Origin: Methanoregula sp.
Lineage (GTDB): Archaea; Halobacteriota; Methanomicrobia; Methanomicrobiales; Methanospirillaceae
Direction: 5' to 3'
NCBI GenBank assembly: GCA_030694985.1
Contig: JAUYTV010000045.1
Location: forward strand, 1-64,000
Length of the DNA: 64,000 bases
In this document: piece by piece, positions 35,470 to 43,691 of the stretch
Position numbering within the stretch: the stretch's first letter is position 1
Layout: each line of letters opens with the position of its first letter
Program-made: the position numbers and the translations under genes
The notes under the pieces: generated by a model
Database searches by the model: none
Seen by the model: only the letters and a program-made list of their open reading frames with translations
Told to the model about the DNA's origin: nothing

Positions 35470-37011
35470 ATGAATTCACTCAGCCCATCCCCAAAACTTT
35501 CAAAAGATGAGGTTGAGCAGGGATTATCCAATATTATTTTCGATGGGATTACCACCCACACCTTTGTCACCCTGACCAGTGGTATCTTCCTTATTGCATT
35601 TGCTCTTGAACTTGGGGCACCAAATATTGTGATCGGTCTTCTTGCGGCAATCCCACCGCTTGCCGAGCTGGTGCAAATCCCGGCTGTAGGACTTATTGAG
35701 AAATTCCGGAACCGGCGTTTCATCACGATTGTAACATCAGTCATGTCACGCGGGCTCTGGATTATAATAGCCGTCATTCCATTCCTGTTCTCTCAGCAGA
35801 TTGGGATTTATTGCCTCATCTGTTTCCTGTTCCTGTACTCATGTATCTCATCTGTCAAGCACTGCTGCTGGAAATCATGGATGAAAGATCTCATTCCGGA
35901 TGAGATTCTTGGCTTGTTCTTCTCGCGCAGGATGGCACTTTCGTTTGCGCTTGCAACGGTACTCAGCCTGTGTGCCAGTTTCTTTCTCAATATCTGGCAG
36001 AGCGACAGTCTGCGGACGCCGGTTTATGGCTACTCGTTCATTTTTCTTGCCGGAAGCCTTATCGGTCTTGCAGGAACCTACTTCCTGATCAAAACACCCG
36101 AGCCACGGATGATAACAACCCCCGGTATTCCGCTCAGGCAACGGTTAACGGAATGGTATTCGGATACAAATTTCAGGAACCTGATTATTTTTTTGAGTCT
36201 CTGGAGCTTTGCAGTCAATCTTGCCGCACCTTTCATGACCGTGTACCTGTTAACACGCTTATCGCTTGACATTACCATCGTCATCCTCTTGTCTATTGTG
36301 AGCCAGATATGCAGCATCATGTCATTCCCCCTCTGGGGTTCAATAACCGACCGGTTCAGCAACAAGTCCGTGCTCAGCATAGCCGGCCCCCTGTTCCTGC
36401 TCTGTTTCCTTGCACTGACATTTACTAACCTGCCTGAACCCCACGCAGTGACATTTCCGCTTCTGCTCATCATCCATATCATCATGGGGGTTTCTACAGC
36501 TGGCGTTACCCTTGCTGCCGGAAACATCGGCCTGAAACTGGCACCGAAAGGATCTGCTACTTCCTATCTTGCGGGTATCAGTATATTCACAGCACTGGCT
36601 GCCGGGATATCACCGATCATCGGGGGATATTTTGTCGATCACCTTGCCGAATGCGAATTATCTTGGAACCTGACCTGGCGGAGTCCTAACCTCCAGATCA
36701 CTATCCCGACCCTCCATCTCCAGCACTGGGATTTTTTCTTTGTCTTTGCATTCCTGATCGGTCTGTATTCTATCCACCGTCTCTCGTATGTTCAGGAACA
36801 GGGAGAAGTTGATGAGCCAATCTTCATCCCCTCCCTTATTGCCTATGGTAGGGACATGCGGAACTTCTCAACTGCCGGCGGAATCAGGAATCTTCTGCGG
36901 TTCCCCATGAATGACATTGATATTCAGTCCGACAATAATGCTTTGCAGTGCCGTCTGGGCCAGAATCTGCAAGAAGTCGCAGATGATGACAGGAAAACGG
37001 GTAAACGGTAA
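35470..37011 (+). CDS. Major facilitator superfamily transporter
   Basis: A 513-residue membrane protein with about 12 helices. The block KFRNRRFITIVTSV between helices 2 and 3 fits the MFS cytosolic loop, and WGSITDRFSNKSVL near the middle is the second-half equivalent (GxxxDRxxxK). The substrate is not evident. The C-terminal ~80 residues are soluble. Stands alone upstream of the receiver-kinase gene. Confidence 0.85.
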   Translation: MNSLSPSPKLSKDEVEQGLSNIIFDGITTHTFVTLTSGIFLIAFALELGAPNIVIGLLAAIPPLAELVQIPAVGLIEKFRNRRFITIVTSVMSRGLWIIIAVIPFLFSQQIGIYCLICFLFLYSCISSVKHCCWKSWMKDLIPDEILGLFFSRRMALSFALATVLSLCASFFLNIWQSDSLRTPVYGYSFIFLAGSLIGLAGTYFLIKTPEPRMITTPGIPLRQRLTEWYSDTNFRNLIIFLSLWSFAVNLAAPFMTVYLLTRLSLDITIVILLSIVSQICSIMSFPLWGSITDRFSNKSVLSIAGPLFLLCFLALTFTNLPEPHAVTFPLLLIIHIIMGVSTAGVTLAAGNIGLKLAPKGSATSYLAGISIFTALAAGISPIIGGYFVDHLAECELSWNLTWRSPNLQITIPTLHLQHWDFFFVFAFLIGLYSIHRLSYVQEQGEVDEPIFIPSLIAYGRDMRNFSTAGGIRNLLRFPMNDIDIQSDNNALQCRLGQNLQEVADDDRKTGKR

Positions 37012-37138: not shown

Positions 37139-38680
37139 ATGGTTTTACTGATGTCAGTAATTTATGTCGATGACGGACCAGATCTCCTGGACATCGGCAA
37201 ATTGTTACTCGAGCGGTCCGGTTTTTTTTCTGTAACTACGGCACAGTGCGCACCGGATGCAATCCGGTCACTTGAACAGGGAAGATTTGATGCAATCATC
37301 TCTGATTACCAGATGCCTGGCATGAACGGGATCCAGTTCCTTACTCATGTGCGATCACGCTTTGGATCGATTCCGTTCATTCTCTTCACCGGCAGGGGGT
37401 GTGAAGAGGTAGTTATCGAAGCCATTAATAACGGGGCTGATTTTTACCTTCAGAAAGGTGGAAATCCTCTCCCAATGTTTGCCGAACTCGCACAAAAAAT
37501 TAAGATAGCAGTTGAAAAGCAAAAAACGATAGTAAGCATCCATAAACAAACAATAGTTCTGGAAGAGCGGGTCAAGGAACTGAACTGCCTGTACCGTTTT
37601 GCTGAAGCCATCAATAAACCCGGTGTTCCTTTAGATGCGATGCTTCAGGACTGTGTCGATCTCCTGCCATCAGGGTACAACCATCCTGAGTACACCAACG
37701 TCAGGGTTGTCTACCTGGAAAAAGAGTACACAACAACCGGCTTTAAGAAATCCGTCTGGAACCAGAACGCTCCTATAATACTAAATGGCGAGTGCGTGGG
37801 CACTGTTGAGGTCTCATACACCGGGGAATGGGCAGACCGGACAAAAGAACCATTCCTTGCAGAAGAAAATTCTTTCCTCAATGGTATTGTGCAGCTTCTA
37901 AAAAACTGTATAGCTCTGAAAATCGCCTCCGGACCTCTCAAAAAAATCGGCAGGAATCAGGAGATTGTAATTAGCGGGGGGATCTCCGGGCTTCCTGATC
38001 CCGGTCAGTTGTTGACAAGTGAGCGGACCCTGCGCCTTGCTGCTGAAAAAGATCTCCATGAATTACAGGAACAAAAAGAAATTCTGCTCAGTGAGATCCA
38101 GAACCGTGTCAAGAACAACCTGCGGGCGGTTCATAGACTGCTGGATCTTCAGTCCAAATATATACGGGACGAAAAGGTCTTAAAAGCACTTCATGAAAGC
38201 CAGAACAGGATAAGAGCTATGGCACTTGTCCATGAAATACTGTATCAGTCTCCCGAAATTACCAACATTGATCTCGATACGTATGTCAATACTCTGGCAA
38301 AAAACCTGTTTGAGTTTTACGGGATCAAAGAACAGAGAATCTCTTTACAGACCGATATCCCTGAAATTTTTTTAAATGTCAACTCGGCAATACCTGTCGG
38401 CCTTATTGTCAATGAACTGATGTCTAATTCTCTTAAACATGCATTTCCCAGTAAAAACAATGGTGAGATATTCATCAAAGTCCGGAAAAAGAATCATACA
38501 CTCTCTATGCTCTTCCGGGACACCGGAATTGGCATTCCAAAGGATCTGAACTGGCGCGATACAAAATCACTGGGATTACGGATGGTTTTTTCTCTTGTGG
38601 AACAGATGAAGGGTAATATCGGACTTGACCGCAGCAGGGGAACGGAATTTTCCATGGTGCTGGAGGAGAAGAAACCGTAA
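37139..38680 (+). CDS. Receiver-histidine kinase fusion with a histidine-less H-box
   Basis: A 513-residue cytosolic signalling protein. Residues 1-125 form a receiver domain (acidic pair Asp11-Asp12, phospho-acceptor Asp56 in SDYQMPGMNG, Lys106). A linker/sensor region follows (~145-300), then a HisKA_2-type dimerisation helix and HATPase. The H-box, usually HHRVKNN, reads QNRVKNN at 321-327: the phospho-acceptor His is Asn322. The ATPase motifs are intact (NELMSNSLKHAF 425-436, DTGIGIP 461-467, LGLRMV). The protein therefore probably cannot autophosphorylate in the normal way, and may be a phosphatase, a scaffold or an ATP-controlled switch. An ATG at 37151 is an alternative start. Confidence 0.88.
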   Translation: MVLLMSVIYVDDGPDLLDIGKLLLERSGFFSVTTAQCAPDAIRSLEQGRFDAIISDYQMPGMNGIQFLTHVRSRFGSIPFILFTGRGCEEVVIEAINNGADFYLQKGGNPLPMFAELAQKIKIAVEKQKTIVSIHKQTIVLEERVKELNCLYRFAEAINKPGVPLDAMLQDCVDLLPSGYNHPEYTNVRVVYLEKEYTTTGFKKSVWNQNAPIILNGECVGTVEVSYTGEWADRTKEPFLAEENSFLNGIVQLLKNCIALKIASGPLKKIGRNQEIVISGGISGLPDPGQLLTSERTLRLAAEKDLHELQEQKEILLSEIQNRVKNNLRAVHRLLDLQSKYIRDEKVLKALHESQNRIRAMALVHEILYQSPEITNIDLDTYVNTLAKNLFEFYGIKEQRISLQTDIPEIFLNVNSAIPVGLIVNELMSNSLKHAFPSKNNGEIFIKVRKKNHTLSMLFRDTGIGIPKDLNWRDTKSLGLRMVFSLVEQMKGNIGLDRSRGTEFSMVLEEKKP

Positions 38681-38995: not shown

Positions 38996-39442
38996 ATGGG
39001 AATGATTTCGGATAAAATGGCTGATGAATGGGATAGTGCCCTCCCAAAAACGGATGGGATATACTGTCTCATCGAAAAAACAATGGAAAGCAGGAGTTCA
39101 AAAGTGCGGATCTGGGCAATCACAGCCCTCGGAAACAGCAAAGATCCCCGTGCAGTCAGGTCTTTAATTGACTGCTGCCAGGACCAGAACCCGGAGATCC
39201 GGCTTCGTGCAATTGAAGGATTGCAAAGCCTAAGAAGTGGTCGGGCAGTAAGTGTCCTTATCGACCGCCTCAGGGATAAGGAAGAACTGCCGGAAACCCG
39301 GCAGCGGGCCGCTGCTGCGCTGGCCACCATCAGAAGTTTTGGCGCGATTCGGGAACTGAATGAACGGCATGCAGATACTGAAGAAGATAGTGCGTTGCGC
39401 ATCTTCATCGGCAGTGAGCTGGACAGGGTGCACCAATGGTAA
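38996..39442 (+). CDS. HEAT-repeat (PBS-lyase-like) protein
   Basis: A 148-residue all-helical protein with about three HEAT-like repeats. Recurrent blocks are SSKVRIWAITALGNSKDPRA, NPEIRLRAIEGLQSLRSGRA and ETRQRAAAALATIRSFGA. Such small solenoids serve as protein-binding scaffolds. The minus-strand ORF over the same bases (38977-39471) lacks a pattern and is taken as a shadow. It lies 172 bases ahead of pycB; no specific partner is evident. Confidence 0.85.
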   Translation: MGMISDKMADEWDSALPKTDGIYCLIEKTMESRSSKVRIWAITALGNSKDPRAVRSLIDCCQDQNPEIRLRAIEGLQSLRSGRAVSVLIDRLRDKEELPETRQRAAAALATIRSFGAIRELNERHADTEEDSALRIFIGSELDRVHQW

Positions 39443-39613: not shown

Positions 39614-41353
39614 GTGTACACTAAACATCCTCACAAAATCAGCATCACGGATACAACACTCCGCGATGCTCACCAGTCACTCATGGCAACCCGACTCCGT
39701 ACAGAGGATATGCTCCCCCTTGCACGGGAACTTGACACATGTGGTTTTTTTTCTGTTGAAGCATGGGGAGGCGCCACTTTCGATACCTGCATACGATTCT
39801 TAAATGACGATCCCTGGGATCGTCTCCGATCCCTCAAGGCCGAGCTGAAACAGACACCTATCCAGATGCTCCTCCGTGGACAGAACCTTGTCGGGTACCG
39901 TCATTACCCGGACGACGTTGTCGACAAATTCGTTACAACGGCTCATAACAGTGGTGTGGATATATTCCGGGTCTTTGACGCCCTGAATGATATCCGCAAC
40001 ATGACGCAGTCGATGAAACAGATAAAAAATGTCGGCGCCCACCTACAGGGCACCATATCCTACACAACGAGCCCGGTACACAACACAAAAACATTCATCG
40101 AGATGGCAGGGGAACTCTACTCGCACGATTGTGATTCCATCTGCATCAAGGATATGGCCGGGCTCATCATGCCAAACGCCACACAGGATCTGATTACCGG
40201 CATTAAAAAAGCAGTAGATGTAAAGATCAGCCTGCACAGCCATTGCACGAGCGGGATTGCTCCCCTGAGTTACCAGGCTGCGATCGATGCCGGTGTTGAT
40301 ATTCTTGATACCGCAATGTCGCCGTTCTCAATGGGTACATCCCAACCGCCGACAGAAAGTATTGTTGCATCACTCATGGGCACGCCGGGCGATACCGGCA
40401 TCGACCTGATTAAACTTCGTGCGGTCCGTAATACCTGCATGAATATCCGAAAAAAATATGCCGGTCTTATTAACCCGATATCAGAACGTGTTGACAGCGA
40501 TGTCCTCATCTACCAGCTTCCCGGAGGAATGATCTCAAATCTTGTATCCCAGTTGGCGGAACAAAATGCCCTCAACCGGATGGATGAAGTGCTTGCAGAA
40601 ATTCCAAGGGTTCGTAAAGAACTCGGATACCCTCCGCTTGTCACTCCCACCAGCCAGATTGTCGGCACACAGGCAGTTCTCAATGTCTTAGCTGGTGGAG
40701 AACGATACCGAACGGTGACACAGGAGGTCAGGGACTATGTCCATGGGCTCTACGGGAAACCCCCTGCGTTGGTCGACGAAGAGATCCGGAACCTGATCAT
40801 CGGTAATGATCCGGTGGTTACCGTCCGCCCGGCAGACCTGCTCGAACCCGCGTATGAAAAAATGAGAGGTAATGCAGAGAAGGCCGGGCTGATAAAAAAA
40901 GAGGAGGATGTGCTCACGTATATCCTCTACCCGGCCATTGCCCCTGCATTCCTCAAGGGGGAGAAAAAAGCCGAAGAGCTGCCGAAAAAAGAATCCCTTC
41001 CCAGTCAGTCGGGAGGGATTTCGGATCAGATGGAGGTGGAGGTGGATGGGGAGGTCTTCTCGGTCCGCATCGTATCTGTTGGCGGGAGCAAAGTTGTAGT
41101 GGCGGGAATCACACCACAAAAGATCCCACAAGGAGATGTTACCGGGGGCATTAAGAGCAACATGCAGGGTATGGTGCTCAAAGTCATGATCAGCAGGAAT
41201 GCTGCCGTAAAGAAGGGCGATACCCTGCTGGTTCTTGAAGCAATGAAGATGGAAAACCCGATCCACAGTCCCGTTGATGGGAAAGTCACTGAGATCTTTG
41301 TTGATACCGGAGATACGGTACAGAACGGTGATGTTCTGGTGGTGGTGCAATGA
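39614..41353 (+). CDS. pycB: Pyruvate carboxylase subunit B (carboxyltransferase plus biotin carrier)
   Basis: A 579-residue protein that transfers CO2 from biotin to pyruvate to make oxaloacetate, feeding the incomplete reductive TCA pathway of methanogens. The N-terminal HMGL-like TIM barrel begins ITDTTLRDAHQSL and carries the metal/active-site features; a PYC_OADA middle domain follows. The C-terminal biotinyl domain has LEAMKMENP with the biotin lysine. The start is a GTG with AGAGGTTGA upstream. The oxaloacetate-decarboxylase alpha family is similar, but the nearby pycA and the lack of membrane beta/gamma subunits favour pyruvate carboxylase. Confidence 0.95.
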   Translation: MYTKHPHKISITDTTLRDAHQSLMATRLRTEDMLPLARELDTCGFFSVEAWGGATFDTCIRFLNDDPWDRLRSLKAELKQTPIQMLLRGQNLVGYRHYPDDVVDKFVTTAHNSGVDIFRVFDALNDIRNMTQSMKQIKNVGAHLQGTISYTTSPVHNTKTFIEMAGELYSHDCDSICIKDMAGLIMPNATQDLITGIKKAVDVKISLHSHCTSGIAPLSYQAAIDAGVDILDTAMSPFSMGTSQPPTESIVASLMGTPGDTGIDLIKLRAVRNTCMNIRKKYAGLINPISERVDSDVLIYQLPGGMISNLVSQLAEQNALNRMDEVLAEIPRVRKELGYPPLVTPTSQIVGTQAVLNVLAGGERYRTVTQEVRDYVHGLYGKPPALVDEEIRNLIIGNDPVVTVRPADLLEPAYEKMRGNAEKAGLIKKEEDVLTYILYPAIAPAFLKGEKKAEELPKKESLPSQSGGISDQMEVEVDGEVFSVRIVSVGGSKVVVAGITPQKIPQGDVTGGIKSNMQGMVLKVMISRNAAVKKGDTLLVLEAMKMENPIHSPVDGKVTEIFVDTGDTVQNGDVLVVVQ

Positions 41354-42069: not shown

Positions 42070-42219
42070 GATTGTGAAGAAAAGAGAGACCCTGCTTGTT
42101 CTCAAATCAATGAAGATGGGAAACCCATTCCACAGTCAATGGATGACAAAGTCATCAAAATCTTTGTCGATACCGGTAATGCGGTCCGGAATGGTGATAT
42201 GATGCTGGAGATGAAATGA
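42070..42219 (+). pseudogene. Broken second biotinyl (BCCP) domain
   Basis: Frame 1 gives KRETLLVLKSMKMGNPFHS, matching KGDTLLVLEAMKMENPIHS at the end of pycB. A one-base deletion follows, after which the next frame gives DDKVIKIFVDTGNAVRNGD, matching GKVTEIFVDTGDTVQNGD in pycB. The two DNA segments align base for base apart from that deletion. The biotin lysine context (MKM) remains but the domain cannot be made whole. It lies directly against the pycA start codon, which overlaps its end. Confidence 0.85.
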
Positions 42220-43691
42220 AATATTTTGAAAAACTCCTGATTGCCAACCGGGGTGAGATTGCCATACGGGTGATGCGAGCCTGTCGCGAGCTCGATATCG
42301 AAACGGTTGCCATCTATTCTACTGCTGACAAGAACGCACTCCATGTAAAATATGCTGACGAGGCGTTCCATGTCGGAGAAGCCCACCCATCGAAGAGCTA
42401 CCTCAACATGGAGCGAATCATCGATATCGCCAGGAAAAGCGGTGCAGAGGCCGTGCATCCGGGGTACGGGTTCCTTGCAGAGAATTATAAATTTGCAAAA
42501 CTCTGCCTGGACGAGAACGTGACCTTTGTCGGACCGCGCTGGAAGACCATCAAGGCAATGGGGTCCAAGATCGGCAGTAAGCAGATAATGAGAGAGAGTG
42601 GGGTGCCGGTCATTCCGGGTACTGAAGGTGGCATCAAAGATCCTGAAGAGGCAAAGAAGATTGCGTCCGTTATCGGGTACCCGGTCATCGTCAAGGCGAG
42701 TGCCGGTGGCGGCGGTATCGGGATGCAAATCGTCAATGATGAGAAAGGGATGGAAGAGGCGATCTCCGCAAGCATGCGGATTGCCCAGTCTGCTTTTGGC
42801 GATGCCACGGTCTTTATCGAGAAATATCTCGTCAAACCCCGGCATATCGAGTTCCAGATCTTTGCTGATGAGCATGGCAATGCAGTCCACCTCTTCGAGC
42901 GCGAGTGCTCTATCCAGCGCCGGCATCAGAAACTGGTAGAAGAAGCACCCTGCACAATCATGACCCCCGATCTGCGCGAACGCATGGCAGATTCCGCCAT
43001 CAGGGTAGCAAAGGCATCGGACTACACCAACGCAGGAACTGTCGAGTTTCTCTACAGCAACGGGAACTATTACTTTATGGAGATGAACACCCGCCTCCAG
43101 GTTGAACATACGATCACGGAGTTCATCACTGGCGTGGACATTGTAAAACAACAACTGGCGATTGCCGCAGGTGAGCCCCTTTCCTTTGAACAAAAGGACC
43201 TCTCTATCCGGGGGCATGCCATCGAATGCCGGATCAATGCCGAAGATCCCCTCAACAACTTCGCAGCAGACCCCGGTAAGATCGTGCGGTACCGCTCTCC
43301 GGGCGGACCGGGCATCAGGATCGACAGCGGTATCCATATGGGCTATACCATATCCCCGGTTTACGACTCCATGATCTCGAAATTGTGTGCATGGGATCGC
43401 ACCCGTTATGACGCAATCAAGCGGATGCGCCGGGCCATCTCAGAGTATATTATCCTCGGAGTAAAGACCACCCTTCCACTTCACTATGCGATCATGAACA
43501 ACCAGCAGTATATAGATGGCAATACTCATACCCATTTCCTTGAGGAAGAACATATCTTTGACACTCTCGAACGCTATACACGTGATGAGGAGGCCCGGAT
43601 GCAGACTCTTGCAGGGTCGTTTGACCAGGGGAAAAAAGTCGCCGCGATCACAGCGGCGGTGAACACGTACCTGCAGCAGAAAAATGGCTGA
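42216..43691 (+). CDS. pycA: Pyruvate carboxylase subunit A (biotin carboxylase)
   Basis: A 491-residue ATP-grasp enzyme that carboxylates biotin on PycB using bicarbonate and ATP. Motifs are IANRGEIAIRVMRACRELDI at the start, the glycine-rich KASAGGGGIGMQIV loop at about 155-168, RECSIQRRHQKLVEEAP, and the metal/catalytic MEMNTRLQVEHTITE. Length is normal for an archaeal PycA or an AccC. Its ATG overlaps the end of the biotinyl relic. Pairing with pycB in the same strand favours pyruvate over acetyl-CoA carboxylase. Confidence 0.94.
   Translation: MKYFEKLLIANRGEIAIRVMRACRELDIETVAIYSTADKNALHVKYADEAFHVGEAHPSKSYLNMERIIDIARKSGAEAVHPGYGFLAENYKFAKLCLDENVTFVGPRWKTIKAMGSKIGSKQIMRESGVPVIPGTEGGIKDPEEAKKIASVIGYPVIVKASAGGGGIGMQIVNDEKGMEEAISASMRIAQSAFGDATVFIEKYLVKPRHIEFQIFADEHGNAVHLFERECSIQRRHQKLVEEAPCTIMTPDLRERMADSAIRVAKASDYTNAGTVEFLYSNGNYYFMEMNTRLQVEHTITEFITGVDIVKQQLAIAAGEPLSFEQKDLSIRGHAIECRINAEDPLNNFAADPGKIVRYRSPGGPGIRIDSGIHMGYTISPVYDSMISKLCAWDRTRYDAIKRMRRAISEYIILGVKTTLPLHYAIMNNQQYIDGNTHTHFLEEEHIFDTLERYTRDEEARMQTLAGSFDQGKKVAAITAAVNTYLQQKNG

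Follow-up and report, generated by a model that had tools for sequence, protein, structure and literature searches.

Few pseudo-histidine-kinases have been described, and most of what is known of them comes from one or two bacterial models. In Caulobacter, DivL, which carries a tyrosine in place of the acceptor histidine, senses DivK~P with neither kinase nor phosphatase activity (PMC4211667), while RdmS and MsmS of Methanosarcina, MA_type 2 kinases with no H-box, bind and hydrolyse ATP without autophosphorylating (PMC11784639). In the receiver-controlled kinase LvrB, a coiled coil forms once the receiver (REC) domain is phosphorylated, and the CA domains are released (PMC13269768). Here we describe a compact, soluble-looking and clade-conserved archaeal protein, a probable pseudokinase, in which the acceptor is the sole catalytic element lost. 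Its close paralogues with an intact HH are ready controls, making it possible to test what a REC-controlled kinase module is capable of without phosphohistidine.

The gene lies in a window of 64,000 nucleotides (the whole stretch of DNA analysed) from a genome whose closest relatives are Methanomicrobiales MAGs (HGW-Methanomicrobiales-3 and Methanoregula sp.); the host is accordingly a methanogen resembling Methanoregula. The ORF opens with ATG, and its features are collected in Table 1. Pfam matches comprised Response_reg (aa 7-109), HisKA_2 (aa 319-394; 84.6 bits against a cut-off of 22.3) and HATPase_c (aa 419-510; 44.3 bits against 26.4). A Pfam search of the GAF-like region (aa ~140-262) matched no family; the region forms an alpha/beta unit in the AlphaFold2 model and, among the modules compared, was joined to REC and HisKA_2 only in the pseudokinase orthologue group. 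The model had a mean pLDDT of 76 and a pTM of 0.44, with unreliable domain orientation, and served for secondary structure and fold matching. A Foldseek search with it returned the HisKA_2/HWE kinase EL346 as the top match and the REC-controlled kinase LvrB (8VC9) as the second, the latter with a poor superposition rmsd.

Table 1. Coordinates of the pseudokinase gene, its domains and key residues, and the upstream transporter gene in the window.
Feature	Position	Strand	Evidence
H-less pseudo-histidine-kinase gene, REC - GAF-like - HisKA_2 - HATPase, 513 aa	37139-38680	+	ORF, Pfam, six orthologues
Receiver (REC), aa 5-120; D11, D56, T84 and K106 present	37151-37498	+	Pfam; invariant in orthologues; CheY-like fold in model (Foldseek)
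REC D56 codon	37304-37306	+	Invariant in aligned orthologues
GAF-like sensory/linker region, aa 140-262	37556-37924	+	AlphaFold2 secondary structure
HisKA_2 dimerisation/H-box region, aa 312-394; helix hairpin 288-341 / 345-370 in model	38072-38320	+	Pfam, AlphaFold2 model
E319, three residues ahead of the acceptor position (E-x-x-N/Q)	38093-38095	+	Invariant in orthologues; at least 90% conserved in alignment with paralogues
N322 (AAC), position of the phospho-acceptor; paralogues have His here and the other five orthologues have Q	38102-38104	+	Paralogue comparison, EL346 alignment
H332, clade-specific invariant His, 10 residues downstream of N322	38132-38134	+	Paralogue comparison
HATPase_c (CA) domain, aa 395-511	38321-38671	+	Pfam; boxes conserved in orthologues
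Intact ATP boxes: N-box; G1; G2	38411-38446; 38519-38539; 38567-38581	+	Alignment of orthologues and paralogues
MFS_1 transporter gene directly upstream of the pseudokinase, co-directional, 127 bp gap	35470-37011	+	Pfam; same neighbour in orthologue loci

The H-box of the pseudokinase reads L-L-S-E319-I-Q321-N322-R-V-K-N-N, with codons CAG AAC at 38099-38104. EL346 (PDB 4R39/4R3A), the closest solved kinase by sequence, has EVQ-H-RVKNH aligned with EIQ-N-RVKNN; since its histidine stands opposite N322, position 322 corresponds to the acceptor, the second of the two usual histidines. Replacement of the first histidine by Q321 was rejected as the loss that matters because EL346 likewise has Q there, and by alignment N322 is the decisive change in the H-box. 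The earlier note had read this H-box as QNRVKNN for HHRVKNN beside an intact receiver Asp56 and intact ATP-binding motifs. Both observations are borne out: six of six orthologues are without either histidine, while REC residues D11, D56, T84 and K106 and the ATP site (N-box N425/E426/N430/K433, G1 D461/G463/G465, G2 S477-L-G-L) are intact, with no variation across the five orthologues aligned. The rest of the H-box is also largely retained, with no change at E319, K325, N326 or N327 in any of the six orthologues and a single one at R323 (serine in G186). Judged by sequence the protein belongs to HisKA_2, yet it does not fit the functional definition of that family, which requires an acceptor histidine; it should not be called a histidine kinase, and an annotation of the gene as such would be wrong.

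We assessed how widespread this substitution is among 232 genomes of the order. These yielded six full-length orthologues (61-68% identity), all in Methanomicrobiales and spanning two genera, and the next-best matches were modules of other kinases at 45-55% identity. The acceptor motif is EIQN in the window, EVQQ in G166 (independently found as L031) and EVRQ in G136, G134, G159 and G186, such that the acceptor is Q in five orthologues and N in one. HH was kept in 44 of the 45 other HisKA_2 modules compared, and an acceptor change in six of six orthologues against one of 45 related modules exceeds what chance would give. The exception with HN, L138 (G167:C1:940015-940686), is an atypical HisKA_2 module with an EIHNRVNSN H-box and IALIYEK for MALVHEK, possibly, from its sequence, a second independent loss of the histidine. 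Motif counts across the 232 genomes gave a similar picture: ExxH[RS]VKNN occurred about 520 times and ExxQ[RS]VKNN six times (five orthologues and one truncated ORF), and ExxN[RS]VKNN was found once, in the window gene. A scan of the phylum (392 genomes) for the ExxQ/K form recovered the same genes and one chance frame only. Neither the ExxQRVKNN match in G183 (L196), a truncated ORF of 94 aa, nor EFYQRVKNN in G373 (L199), a chance frame of 30 aa, was accepted as a member. In a maximum-likelihood tree the six H-less proteins formed one clade (support 100/100) on a stem of 0.64, followed by much shorter branches, and the sequences thereby place the loss of the acceptor histidine once, in the ancestor of this clade. 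Whether Q or N came first is ambiguous from the codons, because the first-branching window genome has AAC at codon 322 and the other orthologues have CAG.

The gene neighbourhood is shared among most of these loci. An MFS gene lies directly upstream of the kinase gene in five of the six orthologue loci, with a remnant in the sixth. In G166, G136, G134 and G159 the transporter is 75-80% identical and sits about 75-120 bp ahead of the kinase; in G186 (L144:4474-4818) an internal deletion has reduced the MFS gene to its two ends beside an intact pseudokinase gene. In G184 the two genes also stand together, and the contig ends inside the kinase gene. G161 (L167:5980-6340) holds a natural loss, a broken pseudokinase downstream of an intact MFS gene, with an in-frame stop in the receiver, a frameshift and a missing kinase part. 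The pair is linked yet separable: G190 and G164 have the MFS gene alone and G186 has the kinase alone, which weakens the idea of the MFS gene as an obligate partner. The patchy presence of the kinase, broken in G161 and absent beside the MFS gene in G190 and G164, implies a dispensable function. No adjacent response regulator or partner kinase gene was found beside the pseudokinase. Besides these linkages, the associated transporters constitute a subgroup (L146-L154 and the window) of 75-82% identity in 10 genomes, in which the C-terminal tail FIxSLIAYGKDMRNFSTAGGIRN is conserved in seven aligned members; with more distant MFS relatives the alignment stops at about residue 481-495. A gene for a small HEAT-repeat protein (38996-39442) lies between the pseudokinase gene and genes for pyruvate/oxaloacetate carboxylase subunits (39614-41353 and 42216-43691), and a similar HEAT protein gene was located upstream of the MFS gene in G190 (L165:1177-1641). 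In relatives, an opposite-strand gene for a DUF5698/DUF2179 membrane protein adjoins the MFS gene (L140:4603-5202 (-), L166:928-1506 (-)); the window showed no such conserved neighbour.

Clade-specific changes were scored in the six orthologues against 42 paralogues. At sites conserved in 41-42 of the 42 paralogues, the H-less clade has lost H321 and H322 and carries Q329 to R/H, S333 to D/R, D471 to N and L482 to M; N474, conserved in 36 of 42, has become D. By helical geometry, positions 322, 329 and 333 (0, +7 and +11) would share one face of helix 1, that of the acceptor. Remodelling in the H-less clade has affected the exposed acceptor stripe on helix 1 (322, 329, 333) and positions in or next to the ATP lid (471, 474, 482).

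Given the broken copy in G161, we considered whether the gene is decaying, or whether the missing histidine reflects one codon miscalled in sequencing or assembly, but this is extremely improbable in view of six intact orthologues and a dN/dS of about 0.14 for the gene (0.13-0.20 in pairwise comparisons wherever dS was unsaturated). Within the H-box, dN/dS was about 0.02-0.15 in most pairs (0.29 for G159/G186, on few changes), and the kinase module was the most conserved part, with about 60% invariant positions in HisKA_2 and HATPase against 48% in REC and 39% in the GAF-like region. The low dN/dS and the high conservation of HisKA_2 and HATPase indicate that the module was kept after the histidine was lost. 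A pseudogene was thus ruled out for the window gene on dN/dS and conservation, and a sequencing error or lone mutation on the six orthologues with the same loss. The earlier note had advised inspecting orthologues for the substitution; none has a histidine at the acceptor, which clears the AAC codon of sequencing error, and its description of a dead phosphotransfer site with receiver and ATP site intact applies throughout the orthologue group, under purifying selection since the loss; the phosphatase or allosteric scaffold that the note suggested would be possible specific roles. At the sequence level, purifying selection has maintained the receiver residues and the ATP boxes together with the remainder of the HisKA_2 motif. 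Alternatively, the phospho-acceptor could have moved, with autophosphorylation elsewhere, most obviously on H332, or on a Tyr, Ser or Thr. H332 lies on the same helix, 10 residues on from the lost histidine, and is invariant in the six orthologues and absent from the 42 paralogues, and the ATP site is intact. However, position 332 is hydrophobic (I/A/V/L) in 39 of 42 paralogues, so H332 is probably packed and not exposed, and not an obvious new acceptor; in a helical geometry calculation it also falls off the acceptor face, by about 80 degrees and about 15 Å along the helix from the acceptor site. Moreover, the reported Tyr autophosphorylation of RdmS was withdrawn as an artefact (PMC11784639), and we regard a relocated acceptor as improbable.

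A further use for intact N, G1 and G2 boxes would be as a kinase in trans, which binds ATP and phosphorylates the histidine of another kinase in a heterodimer, or another protein. A non-self substrate has been proposed for methanogen kinases without an H-box (PMC11784639), and heterodimers of paralogous kinases, one of them a pseudokinase, have been reported for ChrS/HrrS. The host genome, however, has only one other ExxHRVKNN module (L020), which at 33% identity would be a poor heterodimer partner, and paralogue-conserved residues in or near the ATP lid have changed (D471N, L482M), making this reading more improbable still. The H-box might instead have become a dedicated response-regulator phosphatase, in which E319-x-x-Q/N322 and N326 position a water molecule against a phospho-Asp, either of the protein's own REC or of a stand-alone receiver; the host has one of the latter (G000:C53:8297, 166 aa) whose receiver is 68% identical. 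This is unlikely, albeit the main rival reading: position 322 holds only an amide in the six orthologues (five Q, one N) with E319 invariant, the HisKA_2 residue at +4 (N326) is retained, and known water-positioning motifs include ExxN in CheX, DxxxQ in CheZ/NarX and a T/N residue in HisKA (PMC3510030). Yet E319 is near-invariant in normal HisKA_2 kinases too and so does not create a new motif; a single base change is enough to turn His into Gln or Asn, which together with shared ancestry makes the all-amide pattern weak evidence; and in CrdS an N to Q change at the phosphatase residue abolished activity (PMC3510030). PhyP was rejected as a precedent for an H-less phosphatase, as it keeps its histidine and showed no phosphatase activity. 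The fuller scenario, in which a REC-controlled HisKA_2 kinase was turned into a phospho-Asp phosphatase by exchange of its histidine for an amide and a re-facing of its docking stripe, acting on its own receiver or on a stand-alone one near the transporter, is rather doubtful.

The explanation that we consider probable, without great confidence, is a REC-controlled pseudo-histidine-kinase whose output is the docking of a response regulator or partner kinase. Another cellular kinase would phosphorylate REC D56, and this phosphorylation, by analogy with LvrB-type kinases, may rearrange the DHp/CA part. ATP or ADP occupancy would set the conformation, with ATP serving as a structural or conformational ligand. 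Because the acceptor site cannot carry a phosphohistidine, the output would be binding and not phosphotransfer, with the remodelled face of helix 1 as the putative docking surface for a response regulator or partner kinase, on which the protein might act as an amide-based phosphatase. Regulation tied to the neighbouring MFS transporter would be a likely client.

Several known systems share parts of this arrangement. EL346 (PDB 4R39, 4R3A) is the best match to the kinase module in both sequence and structure, its H-box aligning residue by residue, but it has an acceptor histidine and autophosphorylates where the window protein has N. RdmS and MsmS, compared here by their features, are also methanogen kinase-like proteins without an acceptor histidine; they lack the whole H-box, whereas the window protein keeps the HisKA_2 motif except for its histidines and has a REC. 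PhyT (PhyP) of Sphingomonas (PMC5898713) is a degenerate kinase with a regulatory role in the same broad HisKA_2/HWE H-box family, yet it is a mirror image, having kept its histidine and lost its ATPase. Like the window protein, LvrB of Leptospira (PDB 8VC9; PMC13269768) has an N-terminal REC linked by helices to C-terminal DHp and CA domains; unlike it, LvrB autophosphorylates and phosphorylates LvrC, while the window protein is without the acceptor histidine and has a GAF-like region inserted before the kinase module. DivL (PMC4211667) has likewise replaced its acceptor histidine, conserved the loss and kept the fold, and serves as a model of how a response regulator can be sensed in the absence of chemistry, although it is of HisKA type with Tyr and weak ATP binding, in contrast to the HisKA_2 type, the Q/N of the clade, the canonical ATP boxes and the protein's own REC here. 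The related literature examined contained no account of REC control combined with HisKA_2, a Q/N acceptor and an intact ATP site. By analogy, the protein would work most like a DivL-type pseudokinase built on an LvrB-type, REC-controlled chassis.
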